Shown piece after piece: positions 29,391 through 36,584 of a DNA stretch of 36,584 nt. The notes beneath the pieces were generated by a model that worked only from the letters and a program-made list of their open reading frames with translations, did not search any database and had not been told where the DNA came from. The translations under genes and the position numbers were made by a program. The stretch is from Actinomycetes bacterium (GTDB lineage Bacteria; Actinomycetota; Acidimicrobiia; IMCC26256; PALSA-610), in the NCBI GenBank assembly GCA_025463905.1, contig JAODBJ010000127.1, forward strand, positions 1-36,584, given 5' to 3'. The first letter of the stretch is position 1; every line of letters starts with the position of its first letter.

Positions 29391-32300
29391 GTGGAGCCGC
29401 TGCGGATCCACCTTTTGGGAGGGTTCCTCCTCGAACAGGGGCACCGAACGCTCCCGCCGATCCCATCGCGGGCGGCCCGGTCACTGTTCGCCTACCTCGC
29501 GGTCAACCGCGATCGCCGTCACACGCGCGATCTCTTGGCCGGTCTCTTCTGGCCCGACCTTCCCGAAACGAAGGCGCGCCGCCGTCTGAGCCAGGCGCTG
29601 TGGCAAGTGCAAGACGTGCTGGCGGAAACATCCGGCGGCGAGCCGCACCTCCTCACCACGGCCGACGCAGTGGTGTTCAACGCGGCGGCGCCCTACTGGC
29701 TCGACGTCGACCTGTTCGAGCGCGCGCTCGACGGCGTCGAGCCGATGGAGCACCTCGACCCGCAAGAACGTTGGCTCGCGCTCGAGCAGTTGCGCGCCGG
29801 CGTCGAGCTGTACCGCGGCGACTTCCTCGCCGGCTTCTACGACGACTGGGTGACCTTCGAGCAGGAGCGGCTGCGGGAGCGTTACCTCAACGCGCTCACG
29901 GTGCTCGTCGACCTTCTCGCCGGCGCCGGCGACAACCAACAAGCGCTCGCCTACGCACGCCGCCTCACCAACCACGACCCGTTACGCGAAACCGCTCACC
30001 GCGCCGCGATCCGTTTGTATTTCCTGCTCGGCCGCGTCAACGACGCGCTCCAACAGTACGAACGCTGCCGCGCCGTTCTTGCCGACGAGCTCGGCACTGA
30101 ACCGTCGCCGGAAACGCAAGCGCTCTACGAACGCATCGTTCGTTACCGCGAGACCGAGCTCGAACCGGTGGGCGCGGTGTTGCAAGCGACGCAGTCGCCG
30201 TTGTTCCGCCGCGACGGCGCGGTGCCGTTCGTCGGCCGCCGCGAAGAACGCGCGATCCTCGTCGACCGGGTGGAGCTCGCGCTGCGCGGCCAGGGCGGCG
30301 TCGTGCTGGTCGAAGGCGACCCCGGCGTGGGCAAGACTCGGCTCGTCCGGGAAGTGTGCGACGACGCGCGCTGGCGGGGCTTCGACGTCTTGTGGGCACG
30401 CTGCCACGGCAACGCGGTCGCGCGGCCGTACGCGCCACTCGCTGACGCGCTCGCGTCCGCACTCACGCCATTGCGGGCTCAGCAGCTTGCCCAACGCCTC
30501 GACCCGATCTGGCTGCACAGCCTCGCTCGCATCGAGCCGCGCATCGCAGAATGGTTGCCCGACCTCCCCGAAGGGCCGCCGCTACGGCCCGGCGAAGAGC
30601 AGGAACGCATCCGCGAAGCGTTGTTGCGTGCCCTCCTCGCGCTGAGCCGGAACGCTCCGTTGCTGCTCGTCGTCGACGACGTCCAATGGGCCGACGGTGA
30701 AACGCTCGATGTGCTGCGCGCGCTGGCCGGCCATCTCGATGGCAGCCGGGTGCTCGTATGTCTCACCGCCCGCAAGGAGGAGTCGCGCGAGCGCGGCGAG
30801 GTGTGGGAGACGTTGCGCGAACTCGACCGCACATGTGGTCGCGGTCGCCTCCTGTTGGGGCCGTTCACCGTGTTCGAACTGGGCGAGCTGGTACGCCGTA
30901 GCCTCGCGGTTGCCACCGTCCCGCCGCGTTTTTGCGCCCGCTTGCTCGACGACACCGGTGGCAACGCGTTGTTCGTCCTCGAAACGCTCCGCGCACTACG
31001 CGACCAGGGTCGACTCGAAACCGGTGTGGTCGAGATCGGCGACCTCGACCAACTCGCCAACACCGAAACGCTCCCGATCACGCCGGGCGTCAAACGGGTC
31101 GTCACGTCGCGCGTTTCTGCGCTTTCCGACGACGAAACGACGGTCATCGAGTTCACCTCGTTGCGAGCGGGCGTGATCGAACTTGAAACCCTCCAGTTCG
31201 CGACGGAACTCCAGCGCGCGCAGCTCCTCGACGCGATCGACAACCTGCTGGCTCGCGGACTCCTGGTCGAGGTCGACGGCGGCTACGCCTTCCACCACGA
31301 ACAGGTTCGCAGCGTCGTGGAGAGCTCGATCCGCGACCAACTCCGGCCGGAGATGCACCGGCGGATCGCGGGCGCGCTCGCCCGCACCCACGCCGACGAT
31401 GTCGAAGCGCTCGCGCATCACTACGCCGAAGCCGGTATTTCCGAAGTGGCGGTGCGGTACCTCGTGGAAGCGGGGAATCGTGCGCTCGAGCTGCATGCCT
31501 ATCGCAGCGCACTGCACTCCTTCGCGCGCGCCGCCGAGCTCGCGCCGAGTGCCGCGTTGTCGCCTCAGGACCGATTCGACCTACTGGCACAGCACGAACG
31601 TTGCCTCGACGTCCTCGGTCATCGCGAGGACCAGTCCGCGGTGCTCGACGAGCTCGTCGAACTCGCTCGGGGCGATGCGGGAATGCAGGCCGAAGCGGCC
31701 CGCCGGCGCGCCTGGTGGTGTGCGCACAGCGCCCGGTTCGACGAAGCCGAGGTGGAAGCCCGCCGCGCGGTGCTGTTGCACGAGCAGGTCGGCGACCGGC
31801 GCGGCGTGGGAGCGTCGCTGGTGGCGTTGGCTGCGGCGTTGCGGTGGTCGGGTCGTTCCGCGGCCGCGGTGCCGAGCTTGCAAACGGCTATCGAAGTGCT
31901 CGACCACGACCCGATGGCGCGTTCCGCGGCGCGCTGCGAACTCGGCCACGCGCTGCGTGAAACGCAGCGCTACCACGATGCCCGTCGCCAACTCGCGCTT
32001 GCCCGCGCCGAGAGCGAAGCGAGCGGCGACGTTCGCGGCGAAGCTGAGGCGCTCGGCGTCACCGGTGTTGTCGCGATGGAACAAGGCGACACCGAGGCTG
32101 CCGAACGCGCGCTACGCGATGCGCTCCAACGGTGCCGCACCATCGGCTACCGCCACGGCGAGGGCGTCCAGCTCCTCAACCTCGCGAACCTCTGCTACGC
32201 GCAAGGACGGGTCGCCGACGCATTGACCGCGTACGGCGAAGCGTCGGTCGTGTTCTCCGAGCTCGGCAACCGCCGCGGTGAGGCAATGGTTTGTGCCAAC

Positions 32301-33263
32301 ACCGCGTGGGTGCGGCACGCGGTGCTCGGCGACGACGACGCGGCCGAGCGTGAGGCGCGTCAAGCGCTCGAATACTTCCGCGGCGTGGGCGACCGCCGCG
32401 GCGAGGCTCATTGTCTCGACGTGCTCGGTGCGGTCGCGGCGCGCGCCGGACGCCTCGACGAAGCCGCCACGTTGTTGAGTCGCGGGCTCAGTGCGCTGCT
32501 CGACGTTCCCGACGCGTGGCTCGAGCTTCAACTTCAACGGTCCTACGCGCTGTTGGAAATCACTGCTGGCAATTACGCGGCCGCGCTCGAGCGGCTCGAC
32601 GCCGCCGTCGCGACCTGTGACGCCACCGGTACCGACGAACAGCGCCCCGGTCTGATTGCGGTGCGCGGCCTGTGCCTGCTCGAACTCGGGCGGGTGGCCG
32701 AGGCGTATCTCGTCACCGAAGTCGCCGTCGATTCACTGGGTGCCGGCGCCGATCACGCGTGCGCGGCGCTGTGGTGGCACCACCGGTGCGCCCTCGCCAT
32801 CGGCGACAACGACGAAGCGGCCATCACTCTCGAGCGTGCGCACGCCGAGCTCGTGCGGCGCGTCGACGGCCTCGAGGCGGATGTGCGCCGCCGGGCGATC
32901 GACCACGTGCCGGAGCACGCCGCCATTGCCGCGGCCCACGCGATCACGAGCCCGACCCGCCAGACGTTGCGCCTCCCGCGAACCGAAGCGCCCCTCGGAC
33001 GGTCGTTGCGGCCCGAGGAGTTGGTGGAGATCACCTGGACGCTCGAATCGCCCGACGACGCGGCCGTCGCCGACGTCGGACAGCGCCGCCGTCGCCAGAT
33101 TCTCCGGCTGCTCGACGAGGCGGCCGAGCAGGGCGCCGCTCCAACCGTCGACGATCTCGCTGATGCCATCGGGTCGAGCCGATCCACCGTCCGTCGCGAC
33201 CTCGCCACGTTGCGCGGCCTCGGCGTGCCAACCCCTACCCGAGGTCACCGAGAGCGCGACTAA
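29391..33263 (+). CDS. SARP/BTAD-AAA-TPR transcriptional regulator with C-terminal HTH
   Basis: 1290 residues. The N terminus (about 5-90) is an OmpR-type winged helix (RIHLLGGFLLEQG, HTRDLLAGLFWPDLPETKARRRLSQALWQ). A BTAD domain spans about 95-245. An AAA/NB-ARC-like ATPase spans about 275-560, with Walker A GDPGVGKTRL near 308 and Walker B LLLVVDDVQWAD near 426. About 670-1170 is a long helical array of TPR-type repeats. The last 60 residues add a second helix-turn-helix of DeoR/LexA type (TVDDLADAIGSSRSTVRRDLATLRGLGV). SARP proteins usually activate secondary-metabolite or stress genes, and the ATPase/TPR part senses a signal. A second DNA-binding end is not usual for this family as I know it. 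A strong-RBS small peptide gene follows 134 nt downstream. Confidence 0.92.
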   Translation: MEPLRIHLLGGFLLEQGHRTLPPIPSRAARSLFAYLAVNRDRRHTRDLLAGLFWPDLPETKARRRLSQALWQVQDVLAETSGGEPHLLTTADAVVFNAAAPYWLDVDLFERALDGVEPMEHLDPQERWLALEQLRAGVELYRGDFLAGFYDDWVTFEQERLRERYLNALTVLVDLLAGAGDNQQALAYARRLTNHDPLRETAHRAAIRLYFLLGRVNDALQQYERCRAVLADELGTEPSPETQALYERIVRYRETELEPVGAVLQATQSPLFRRDGAVPFVGRREERAILVDRVELALRGQGGVVLVEGDPGVGKTRLVREVCDDARWRGFDVLWARCHGNAVARPYAPLADALASALTPLRAQQLAQRLDPIWLHSLARIEPRIAEWLPDLPEGPPLRPGEEQERIREALLRALLALSRNAPLLLVVDDVQWADGETLDVLRALAGHLDGSRVLVCLTARKEESRERGEVWETLRELDRTCGRGRLLLGPFTVFELGELVRRSLAVATVPPRFCARLLDDTGGNALFVLETLRALRDQGRLETGVVEIGDLDQLANTETLPITPGVKRVVTSRVSALSDDETTVIEFTSLRAGVIELETLQFATELQRAQLLDAIDNLLARGLLVEVDGGYAFHHEQVRSVVESSIRDQLRPEMHRRIAGALARTHADDVEALAHHYAEAGISEVAVRYLVEAGNRALELHAYRSALHSFARAAELAPSAALSPQDRFDLLAQHERCLDVLGHREDQSAVLDELVELARGDAGMQAEAARRRAWWCAHSARFDEAEVEARRAVLLHEQVGDRRGVGASLVALAAALRWSGRSAAAVPSLQTAIEVLDHDPMARSAARCELGHALRETQRYHDARRQLALARAESEASGDVRGEAEALGVTGVVAMEQGDTEAAERALRDALQRCRTIGYRHGEGVQLLNLANLCYAQGRVADALTAYGEASVVFSELGNRRGEAMVCANTAWVRHAVLGDDDAAEREARQALEYFRGVGDRRGEAHCLDVLGAVAARAGRLDEAATLLSRGLSALLDVPDAWLELQLQRSYALLEITAGNYAAALERLDAAVATCDATGTDEQRPGLIAVRGLCLLELGRVAEAYLVTEVAVDSLGAGADHACAALWWHHRCALAIGDNDEAAITLERAHAELVRRVDGLEADVRRRAIDHVPEHAAIAAAHAITSPTRQTLRLPRTEAPLGRSLRPEELVEITWTLESPDDAAVADVGQRRRRQILRLLDEAAEQGAAPTVDDLADAIGSSRSTVRRDLATLRGLGVPTPTRGHRERD

Positions 33264-33397
33264 GGGCACCTTGAGTCGCCGCGTTTTGCGGTGAGCCCGA
33301 GGTTTTGCCGGCAGCCCGTGTCGATTGAGACACCGGCGAGACAACGTATTCGCACATTGCGAGGTGCGGGAACGTCGCTAGCAGGGGGAGGTCAACC

Positions 33398-33490
33398 ATG
33401 ACCAAGCGCTTACTCGCCTTCGCAACGACTGTTGGCACTGTCGTCGTACTCTGGGTCGCCCCGGCTGCCGCCGGGATTCGCAACATGTAA
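33398..33490 (+). CDS. 30-residue exported peptide, signal peptide plus short tail
   Basis: 30 codons: n-region MTKR, hydrophobic core LLAFATTVGTVVVLWVA, then PAAA-GIRNM and TAA. APAAA fits a signal peptidase I site (A-x-A), which would release the pentapeptide GIRNM. The ribosome binding site is GGGGGAGG, 6 nt before ATG, one of the strongest in the window, and supports a real gene. TTGAGA (33325-33330) and TATTCG (33347-33352) upstream are a possible weak promoter. It lies after the SARP-TPR regulator on the same strand and ends before terminator-like hairpins. It might be a peptide pheromone precursor or a small membrane peptide; both are inference. It is too short for homology-based naming. 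Confidence 0.6.
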   Translation: MTKRLLAFATTVGTVVVLWVAPAAAGIRNM

Positions 33491-33566: not shown

Positions 33567-33616
33567 GCGCGGCGTGGGGTGTGAGACAACCGCCCCTGTC
33601 TCACGCCCCGCCGCGC
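33567..33616. terminator. Bidirectional terminator-like hairpin before the PP2C gene end
   Basis: Two 8-bp stems are in register, GCGCGGCG/CGCCGCGC (33567-33574 and 33609-33616) and GTGAGACA/TGTCTCAC (33581-33588 and 33597-33604), with a small internal loop and an 8-nt loop. On the plus strand CCTTTTGG follows. It sits between convergent transcripts. Confidence 0.55.
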
Positions 33617-33628
33617 AGTTCCTTTTGG

Positions 33629-36208
33629 TTACTTTTGTACCCTCATGGCGATGACGCAGATGTCGTCGAGGCTGGGGCGGCCGCTGTAACGCTCGTCGAG
33701 CAGCGCCTCGCACAACACTTCGAGGTCGGCGTCGGGCGTCGCCGCGACTCTTTGGGCCAGCCATGCGAGGCCGTCGTCGATCGGCGCGGATCGTCGTTCG
33801 ACGAGGCCGTCGGTGAAGAGCACCAGCAGCGCGCCGGGCTCGAGTTCGTGTTGCGCGACTTGGTACTCGGTCGCCATTGCGCCGAGAGGCGTGCCGCCGA
33901 TCGAGTCGAGGAACTCCGTGCGCTCGCCGGTGCAGACGAGTGCCGGAGGGTGACCGGCCCGCGCCCACGACAACACCCGCGTCGTCGGATCGAAGTGCGA
34001 CGCGATCGCCGTGACCATGGCCTCGTCTTCGAGCACGCGCAACACGCGGTCGAGGCGGCGTAGGAGGGTTCCCGGGTCGGGATCCTCGACGGCAAACGCG
34101 CGCGCGGCGTTGCGTACCCGACCCATCAACGTCGCGGCGGCGATGCCGTGGCCGGCGACATCGCCGATCACGATCACGATGCCACCTCCGTCGACGTCGA
34201 ACGCGTCGTACCAGTCGCCGCCGACCTCGATGCCGCTCTCGGCGGGGTGGTAGCACGCGGCGAACTCGAGGCCCGGCACGTTCGGGAGCGCGTCGGGGAG
34301 GATGCTGCTCTGCAGCAACGCGACGAGGCGGTGCTCGGCTTCGAGCTGCGCCTGACTCTCGCGCAGCGCGCTCGCGGCAAGTTCTTGTTCGGATCGCAAC
34401 AAGCGCGCCCGTTCGTACGCCGACGCGCTTCGGCGCCCAAGGTCCATCGCGACTTCGAGGTGCACGTGACCCAGGCGCACCGGCCGGTCGTCGCCGATCG
34501 TCAGCACGCCGACGCAACGCCCGCCCGCGATCATCGGCGCAACGATGCCGGAGCGCCACCCGACTCGTTCGACGATCAGGCGGACGTCGTCGCTCAGCTC
34601 GACCGGCTGCGTCGTGGCCGGCGTACGCGGCAACAACACCGGGCGACCCGACTCGATCACTTCGCGCGACGTCACGCCCCCGTCGAGATCGAGCGCGAGA
34701 AGTTGCTCGAGTTCCGCAACCCGGTCGCGATCGGCGTGCGAAACGGCAACGCGCTGGAGTGCACCGCGCCCGTCGAACAGTTGGATCGTGGCCCAACGAC
34801 CGATGCGGTCGGCCGCGATGTCGGCGGCTACCTGCAGTTGCGTGTCGGGGTCGTCGAGCGCGGCCAGCCGTTCCGAGGCATGGAGGAGGAGACGCAACCG
34901 GTCCTGGACGGTTTGTTCGGCCTCGAACAGGAGCGCACGTTGCAACGCTTGCGCGCACGCTTCCATGACTGCGCCGATGAACGCGCGGTCCTCGTCGGGG
35001 AAGTGGCGCGACTCGTCGAAACCGAGCGCGATGACTCCACCCGGCGTGCCGTCGACGAAGAGCGGGTACACCACGAACGCGCCGTGCATGTCGTCGCGCG
35101 GAAAATGGGGATAGCGCGCGACGCCGTCGACGGGTGATTCCACGAACATCGGGTTTCCCGTTCGCAGCACTTCGGGAGCAGGGAGCGATGCGCTCACCTC
35201 GACGAACCGGTATTGATCGATGAGGTTCGGCGGGTAGCCGACCTGCGATCGCATCACGAGGGTCTGTTGCTCGGTATCGACGGTCGCGAAATACCCCGTG
35301 CGGGCGCCCAGCGCAGAGATGCCGTGCTCGAGGATGAGGTCCGCGATCTCGTCGACGGTGCTCGCGCCCGACAAACCGAGCGTGACGTCTTGCAGGTGGG
35401 TGAGCGCAGCCATCGACCGTTCGGCCGCGCGACGAGCTTCCCGTTCCGACGCCAACAACGTCGCCCGTTCGAGGTCGGCCCGGTGCCGGTCGTCGATGTC
35501 GATCGCAACACCCGTCGCGCCGATGACGTTGCCGGCGGCGTCGAACACCGCCTCACCGCGTCCTTCGATCCAGTGCACCGATCCGTCGGGCCAGATCGTG
35601 CGATGGTCCATGCGGAACTGCGCGCCGGCGGCGACGGCCTTTTCCACGGTCTCGAGCATGCGCTCGCGATCTTCAGGATGCAGCGTCTGCTTCCACGCCT
35701 CGAATGTCTTCTCGAAGGTTCCCGGTTCGACGCCGAACAGCGGTTCGAGCAAGTCGTCCCAGTCGACTGCGTTCGTGCGCATGTCCCATGACCAGCTGCC
35801 CATCCGGCCGGCGTCGAGCGCGAGTTTCAGCCGGCGGGCGAGATCGATCTCGGGCCGCGCCGCCTGCAACTCGGCTTCGCGGCGTGTGCGGCGAGCGGCG
35901 ACGAGCGTGGCGGCGACTGCACCGATCGCGACCACGGCGACGTCGGCCGCCTGTTGCGTACCCGAGATGTCTTGGAGGCCGAGCGATACGGCCGCAGCGA
36001 CGACAGCCAGCGCCCCGACGAACGCGGTCGTCGGCCCGTCGTCGAACACCGCGACGAGGAAGGGCCCGGCGACGACTGCGGGAGCGAGTACCGCGGTGGT
36101 GGCAGCGTCCGCGATCGCGATCGCCCCGATGACCGCGAGCGCCATCGCGATCACCCACCATTGCGAGGCGCGACGGCCCCTCAAACCCCCTGCGGGCCCG
36201 GACGCCAC
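33629..36208 (-). CDS. Membrane PAS-GAF-GAF SpoIIE-type PP2C phosphatase
   Basis: 859 residues from GTG 36208. A membrane region (about 15-110) is followed by PAS (about 130-250), GAF (about 280-435), a second GAF (about 440-610) and a C-terminal PPM/SpoIIE phosphatase domain (about 625-857). The metal-binding aspartates are in EVGGDWYDAF and IGDVAGHG, followed by VLFTDGLVERR and the late SLDDICVIAM. This is the RsbU/RsbP class that dephosphorylates anti-anti-sigma factors. The start at 36208 is preferred over extension to 36331 because TATCGT lies 6 nt before it and the extension would overlap the divergent kinase gene. The divergent RsbW-type ATPase supports a partner-switch role; the sigma factor and antagonist are not in the window. 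Confidence 0.93.
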   Translation of the reverse strand: MASGPAGGLRGRRASQWWVIAMALAVIGAIAIADAATTAVLAPAVVAGPFLVAVFDDGPTTAFVGALAVVAAAVSLGLQDISGTQQAADVAVVAIGAVAATLVAARRTRREAELQAARPEIDLARRLKLALDAGRMGSWSWDMRTNAVDWDDLLEPLFGVEPGTFEKTFEAWKQTLHPEDRERMLETVEKAVAAGAQFRMDHRTIWPDGSVHWIEGRGEAVFDAAGNVIGATGVAIDIDDRHRADLERATLLASEREARRAAERSMAALTHLQDVTLGLSGASTVDEIADLILEHGISALGARTGYFATVDTEQQTLVMRSQVGYPPNLIDQYRFVEVSASLPAPEVLRTGNPMFVESPVDGVARYPHFPRDDMHGAFVVYPLFVDGTPGGVIALGFDESRHFPDEDRAFIGAVMEACAQALQRALLFEAEQTVQDRLRLLLHASERLAALDDPDTQLQVAADIAADRIGRWATIQLFDGRGALQRVAVSHADRDRVAELEQLLALDLDGGVTSREVIESGRPVLLPRTPATTQPVELSDDVRLIVERVGWRSGIVAPMIAGGRCVGVLTIGDDRPVRLGHVHLEVAMDLGRRSASAYERARLLRSEQELAASALRESQAQLEAEHRLVALLQSSILPDALPNVPGLEFAACYHPAESGIEVGGDWYDAFDVDGGGIVIVIGDVAGHGIAAATLMGRVRNAARAFAVEDPDPGTLLRRLDRVLRVLEDEAMVTAIASHFDPTTRVLSWARAGHPPALVCTGERTEFLDSIGGTPLGAMATEYQVAQHELEPGALLVLFTDGLVERRSAPIDDGLAWLAQRVAATPDADLEVLCEALLDERYSGRPSLDDICVIAMRVQK

Positions 36209-36214
36209 GTTCGA

Positions 36215-36220
36215 ACGATA
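36215..36220 (-). promoter_or_regulatory. -10 box (TATCGT) for the leaderless PP2C gene
   Basis: On the minus strand TATCGT lies 6 nt before GTG 36208, with no Shine-Dalgarno sequence in between. Confidence 0.5.
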
Positions 36221-36224
36221 GCCC

Positions 36225-36245
36225 GACCGGCTGCGCGCGCCGGTC
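36225..36245. promoter_or_regulatory. Inverted repeat between divergent PP2C and kinase promoters
   Basis: GACCGG (36225-36230) and CCGGTC (36240-36245) are perfect complements 9 nt apart, placed just upstream of the PP2C -10 box and 30 bp upstream of the kinase -10 box, so one bound protein could affect both promoters. Confidence 0.4.
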
Positions 36246-36274
36246 AGTCGCCTGTCTCGCGCGGGGAGTGTCGA

Positions 36275-36280
36275 TAGGAT
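36275..36280 (+). promoter_or_regulatory. -10 box (TAGGAT) for the RsbW-type kinase gene
   Basis: TAGGAT lies 8 nt before GTG 36289. The same leaderless layout as the divergent phosphatase suggests coordinated expression. Confidence 0.45.
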
Positions 36281-36288
36281 TCCGCGTT

Positions 36289-36584
36289 GTGCCGTCGGTG
36301 GAATTACCCGCAGATCGAACGGCTCCATCACGGGCTCGCCTCTTCGTATCGGCGACGCTGGGCGAGTGGGGTGTGCCGCGCGCCGTCGTCGACGACTCCG
36401 TACTGCTCGTGTCGGAACTGGTCACGAACGCGTTGTTGCACGCGCGCTCCGCGCCGACGGTCGAGCTAGAGCGTTCGCGCGGGTTCTTTCGCTGCACGGT
36501 CCGCGACGACAGCCCGGCGGCGCCTCGCCGGCGTCGCTACTCGACTGACGCGGTAACTGGGCGCGGGATCGCGCTCGTGGAAAC
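36289..36584 (+). CDS. RsbW-type ATP-binding anti-sigma kinase, truncated by window end
   Basis: Partial: 98 codons with the frame still open at the window edge. The HATPase signatures are the N box LLVSELVTNALLHA (about 39-52), then FRCTVRDDSPAAP (about 67-79) as the G1 region, and GRGIALVE as the start of G2. This is the small serine-kinase class that binds ATP and phosphorylates an anti-anti-sigma factor while holding a sigma factor. The GTG start follows a leaderless -10 box. It faces the SpoIIE phosphatase divergently, the classical antagonist pair of partner switching. Sigma-factor binding cannot be judged from the fragment. Confidence 0.82.
   Translation, partial: MPSVELPADRTAPSRARLFVSATLGEWGVPRAVVDDSVLLVSELVTNALLHARSAPTVELERSRGFFRCTVRDDSPAAPRRRRYSTDAVTGRGIALVE

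Follow-up and report, generated by a model that had tools for sequence, protein, structure and literature searches.

We describe a short gene for a putative exported peptide behind a large Streptomyces antibiotic regulatory protein (SARP) in contig JAODBJ010000127.1 of an Actinomycetes bacterium (assembly GCA_025463905.1), analysed over a stretch of 36,584 nt (from here: the window). At the level of sequence, the gene itself, its synteny, the selection acting on it, its predicted export signal, its promoter grammar and the specificity of its tail strongly support an exported peptide that is controlled by the adjacent SARP. We propose, with a probability of about 0.58, that the two form an autoinducing peptide-pheromone/receptor circuit that works like the RRNPP systems and in which an AfsR-like large SARP serves as the receptor.

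The peptide precursor gene occupies positions 33398..33490 of the forward strand and consists of 30 codons plus TAA, encoding MTKRLLAFATTVGTVVVLWVAPAAAGIRNM. Its Shine-Dalgarno sequence, GGGGGAGG (33384..33391, forward strand), ends 6 nt 5′ of the ATG, and the frame starts 134 nt behind the stop codon of the regulator gene on the same strand. Residues 1–25 (33398..33472) resemble a Sec-type signal peptide for which cleavage by signal peptidase I is predicted after APAAA, leaving the five residues beyond the AxA site, GIRNM (33473..33487), as the mature tail. The precursor has no match in Pfam. The first-pass annotation had pointed to this frame, its ribosome binding site, its signal peptide with five leftover residues and a regulator with a tetratricopeptide repeat (TPR) array upstream on the same strand; all of these features were found exactly as described, and the frame is confirmed as a genuine gene. 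It had been overlooked because it is very small, and peptide genes of this kind are short enough to slip past ordinary gene callers.

The regulator gene (29391..33263, forward strand) encodes 1290 aa and is the proposed activator of the peptide gene as well as the proposed receptor of its product. As judged from Pfam and alignments, its N-terminal SARP region includes a BTAD domain (PF03704, residues 104–249) and is followed by an AAA_16 ATPase (PF13191, residues 279–456), a long TPR array (TPR_12, PF13424, residues about 655–1190, seen by Pfam and in an AlphaFold model) and a DUF1670/HTH domain (HTH_11, residues about 1199–1286). This C-terminal helix-turn-helix (HTH) and the SARP-type promoter between both genes had not been part of the earlier annotation.

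A search of 61 genomes yielded a single convincing peptide relative, which comes from the same class but a different order (54% identity, E 0.0016), located directly behind a full-length regulator 42% identical to that of the window. Scanning contigs with the window regulator alone gave no matches, whereas alignment-based scans of the class and the phylum recovered dozens of regulator homologues, some of them from a further class of this phylum; the titles of loci bearing the pair include Acidimicrobiia and Nitriliruptoraceae. The 450 nt 3′ of each regulator were then evaluated with a rule demanding a Shine-Dalgarno sequence, two or more K/R close to the N-terminus, a hydrophobic core, an A-x-A-type site and a tail of 4–10 residues. 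The rule matched at 43/46 family loci, or 45/48 with two loci added by eye in which the regulator end and the peptide lie on separate contigs, compared to 0/29 loci of a related SARP-AAA-TPR subfamily, most of whose members are shorter and lack the C-terminal extension; these counts come from a rule drawn up with the family already seen and, as the loci share descent, are non-independent trials. Dinucleotide shuffles never matched (0/920 for the family, 0/580 for the control). For this family, the expected synteny of short frames behind SARP-AAA-TPR genes was borne out. The equivalent frames encode 28–34 aa on the strand of the regulator, with a Shine-Dalgarno-like motif, a signal peptide and a tail of 5–7 residues, and in a search of 395 genomes of the class the strong peptide-profile matches in small frames sit at regulator loci. 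Alanine occupies position −1 in 36/36 sequences of the peptide alignment, while PAxA is nearly invariant in its Pro and Ala. Neither regulator nor peptide was found in 13 searched genomes of the window's own family; therefore, the pair was likely either acquired by transfer or widely lost. At a locus titled Caldilineaceae (Chloroflexi), a full-length regulator relative (36%) also carries the C-terminal HTH, yet no small peptide follows it.

Judged from its codons, the peptide is under purifying selection: over within-clade pairs the ratio of nonsynonymous to synonymous polymorphism (pN/pS) was 0.24 (0.22 for the leader, 0.37 for the tail), so that the frame is conserved and the two rates are not equal. 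Of five genomes in the AVVNIR clade, 4/5 share the same tail and the remaining one differs by a single residue, amid many synonymous substitutions. A paralogue clade with xxNWGx tails differs, showing 46.9/120.9 nonsynonymous and 10.1/130.1 synonymous pairwise differences over six tail codons (sums made by hand from overlapping, non-independent pairs); therefore this tail diversifies around its conserved W. Among the tails are an RPGH group (ILRPGH, IWRPGHS, TWRPGHG), a group with SISDMS, SVSDMS, SGSLMS and SIGNMT, another with NGDWGV, DANWGN and NVNWGT, as well as AHGNWG, AVVNIR and AVLNML, SVVNIH, TGDFHR, and GTLNMG, GIKNLGL, GIKNMGL and GVRNLGL, the last three of which come from another class and are the closest to GIRNM. 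On the regulator tree every tail class tracks its clade, being constant or similar inside clades and different between them, and the f38 genomes hold two paralogous regulators with two separate tail classes. By this pattern the tails would represent clade-specific "pherotypes".

The intergenic region carries a direct repeat with an 11-bp period, GAGACA-N5-GAGACA (33327..33343, forward strand), and a predicted −10 element, CACATT (33353..33358), beginning 9 nt past the second GAGACA (8 bp past the heptamer). In the 36 loci with a box at up to three mismatches, an xAxxxT hexamer lies 9 nt 3′ of the repeat in 28, and at any other offset tested in at most 2. As predicted from sequence, this spacing agrees with the published SARP rule of direct repeats 11 bp apart and a 3′ repeat 8 bp from the −10 element (PMC10936776; see also PMC5930380). 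The exact box occurs once in the 4.85-Mb genome of the window, at the peptide, and once, again at the peptide, in 8/12 other genomes; one-mismatch sites elsewhere in the window's genome gave no convincing candidate. Further exact boxes in G264, G301 and G203 were considered, but none precedes a peptide-like frame, and the G264 site and one G203 site are apparently inside coding sequence.

The three loci failing the peptide rule belong to G346, G264 and G143. In G264 the frame is divergent, while in G346 the frame 3′ of the regulator is broken after MRRRIAFVALTAAT by a transposase-like insertion. In G143 a Shine-Dalgarno sequence about 85 nt past the regulator stop is followed by ATG CTG CGC CCC GGA CAC GGA CCT AGC TAA, encoding MLRPGHGPS; the leader has apparently been deleted in frame while tail and Shine-Dalgarno sequence were kept, and no leadered copy was found in this genome. 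The tail seems to have been retained as if it were the functional part.

According to the proposed circuit, the large SARP with its ATPase, TPR and extra C-terminal HTH would activate the dedicated SARP promoter of the 30-codon gene, the precursor would leave the cell through Sec, and signal peptidase I, cutting behind PAxA, would free a peptide of 5–7 residues (GIRNM here). This peptide would re-enter the cytoplasm, probably via an oligopeptide ABC importer, and bind its cognate SARP, most likely at the TPR superhelix, altering the activity of the SARP; the outcome would be positive feedback with clade-specific pherotypes. Four observations lead us to infer that the peptide is the SARP ligand, namely its pherotypes, the autoregulatory arrangement of the pair, the presence of a TPR module and the leaderless G143 copy; we likewise infer its cleavage, import, binding, sign of regulation and intercellular use. 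The genome of the window has six SBP_bac_5 genes, none of them linked to the locus.

This layout resembles the RRNPP(A) systems of Bacillota (Rap-Phr, PlcR-PapR, NprR-NprX, Rgg-SHP, AimR-AimP) in that a TPR regulator is followed by a small exported-propeptide gene with its own Shine-Dalgarno sequence and export signal, and in the predicted 5–7 residue signal at the propeptide C-terminus, the clade-specific tails and the likely autoinduction. The strict definition of RRNPP_detector demands a receptor of 250–500 aa with peptide-binding TPRs (PMC10075063), whereas the proposed receptor here is a 1290-aa SARP-AAA-TPR-HTH protein, the phylum is not Bacillota (Firmicutes) and the promoter is of the SARP type. 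Because receptor type and phylum differ, the pair is not RRNPP and is claimed only to work like it. The G143 peptide further recalls the leaderless communication peptide sensed with RopB (PMC10518010), having a Shine-Dalgarno sequence and no signal peptide, but the other family members carry one and the receptors are unrelated. We give about an even chance to the wider proposal that Actinomycetota possess a class of short peptide pheromones distinct from RRNPP and sensed inside the cell: Sec-exported, with clade-specific tails and with their own SARP-ATPase-TPR-HTH receptors, which would drive the dedicated peptide promoter and, in certain lineages, a gene for an EAL protein or a tyrosinase. 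No published account of such a peptide-SARP pair was found in the literature searchable without preprints and most subscription papers. In the RRNPP literature, small molecules are described as the typical signals of Actinomycetota and peptides as those of Bacillota (PMC10075063), a picture that a pair conserved across two actinobacterial classes would change. It would also supply a candidate ligand for the TPR module of large SARPs, which in AfsR has been called a tentative sensor domain (PMC10936776).

The strongest alternative, which we nevertheless hold to be rather unlikely, is modelled on AfsR/AfsS of Streptomyces: the SARP would sense another cue, e.g. a nucleotide or a phosphorylation state, and the small peptide, whether secreted or held in the membrane, would be its output at the envelope or outside, not its ligand. 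AfsR is likewise a large SARP, equipped with NOD and TPR modules, and activates the small target gene afsS from a pair of 11-bp repeats located in the −35 region, the same layout as here (PMC10936776); the window regulator, with its BTAD-containing SARP region, ATPase and TPRs, is AfsR-like, although its DUF1670/HTH extension sets it apart. Unlike AfsS, which is not known to carry a signal peptide, the target here is a 30-aa precursor that has an export signal and a hypervariable tail. Tails that are hypervariable between clades but largely fixed within them, with separate classes for paralogous regulators in one genome, are what is expected of a signal and its receptor and therefore favour the signalling pair, as does the tail retained without its leader in G143. 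In a further alternative, the product would stay uncleaved in the membrane and there tether or inhibit the SARP or some other protein. Small peptides of the membrane are common and the hydrophobic core after K/R would suit one, yet an anchor has no need of an invariant Ala at −1 or a nearly invariant Pro-Ala in PAxA, which makes this reading improbable. That the frame is a chance or decaying one, as its shortness and the interrupted copy in G346 might suggest, is refuted by the counts at family and control loci, the purifying selection and the dedicated promoter and Shine-Dalgarno sequence, and has practically no probability left.

Several results weigh against the pheromone circuit. In most genomes the peptide gene is the only target detected, which also suits an AfsS-like effector, and in clades f38a and f31 (about 10/46 loci) the box is diverged or missing. 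The G143 deletion rests on a single assembly and could reflect decay or an assembly fault. The AlphaFold model of residues 655–1290 (pLDDT 93.7) shows a long superhelix of TPRs followed by a C-terminal domain, and its nearest solved structures include the peptide-binding LGN and APPBP2, a likeness that fits peptide sensing but is generic to TPR proteins at large; no RRNPP protein was among its top 50 PDB matches. Tail distance correlated to a similar extent with most domains of the regulator, and none stood out after partialling; this lack of a domain-specific coevolution signal speaks for the effector reading. A candidate tail-binding site on the neighbouring TPR A-helices 881–897 and 921–937, with a small cluster of specificity-determining positions and conserved Asn930/Asn970, was rejected: no binding site is claimed because the partial correlations do not favour these helices and Asn930 is also present in the control subfamily.

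Searching for the box plus −10 element revealed that G465, G443 and G659 have extra sites 5′ of the regulator. In G465 and G443 the second site precedes a membrane EAL-domain gene adjoining the regulator (Pfam E 1.9e-48 in G465, where the gene ends 29 nt before the regulator), and in G659 a tyrosinase gene (E 3e-30). These were the sole second targets detected, all in genomes other than that of the window. The idea of a short-peptide signalling pair outside Firmicutes gained from conservation, synteny, selection, tail pherotypes and a dedicated promoter, but the suggested output through the nearby phosphatase and kinase found no support: the genes downstream vary among clades, encoding a hydantoinase, a membrane protein, a PAS protein or others, and neither the PAS/GAF/SpoIIE phosphatase (33629–36331, reverse strand) nor the divergent HATPase_c_2 gene that the contig end cuts off (36268–36582, forward strand) is conserved with the pair.

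Two observations concern the DNA 3′ of the peptide. In family f19 (four loci) a conserved stretch, GATCCAGAGC ... GACGTACGCCCAGGGG, is followed by a terminator-like hairpin; Rfam recognized no known RNA in five loci, three of them from f19. In the window, an inverted repeat, GTGAGAC...GTCTCAC (33581–33604), lies between the peptide gene and the SpoIIE-type gene that converges on it, comprising a half-box and possibly acting as a terminator.
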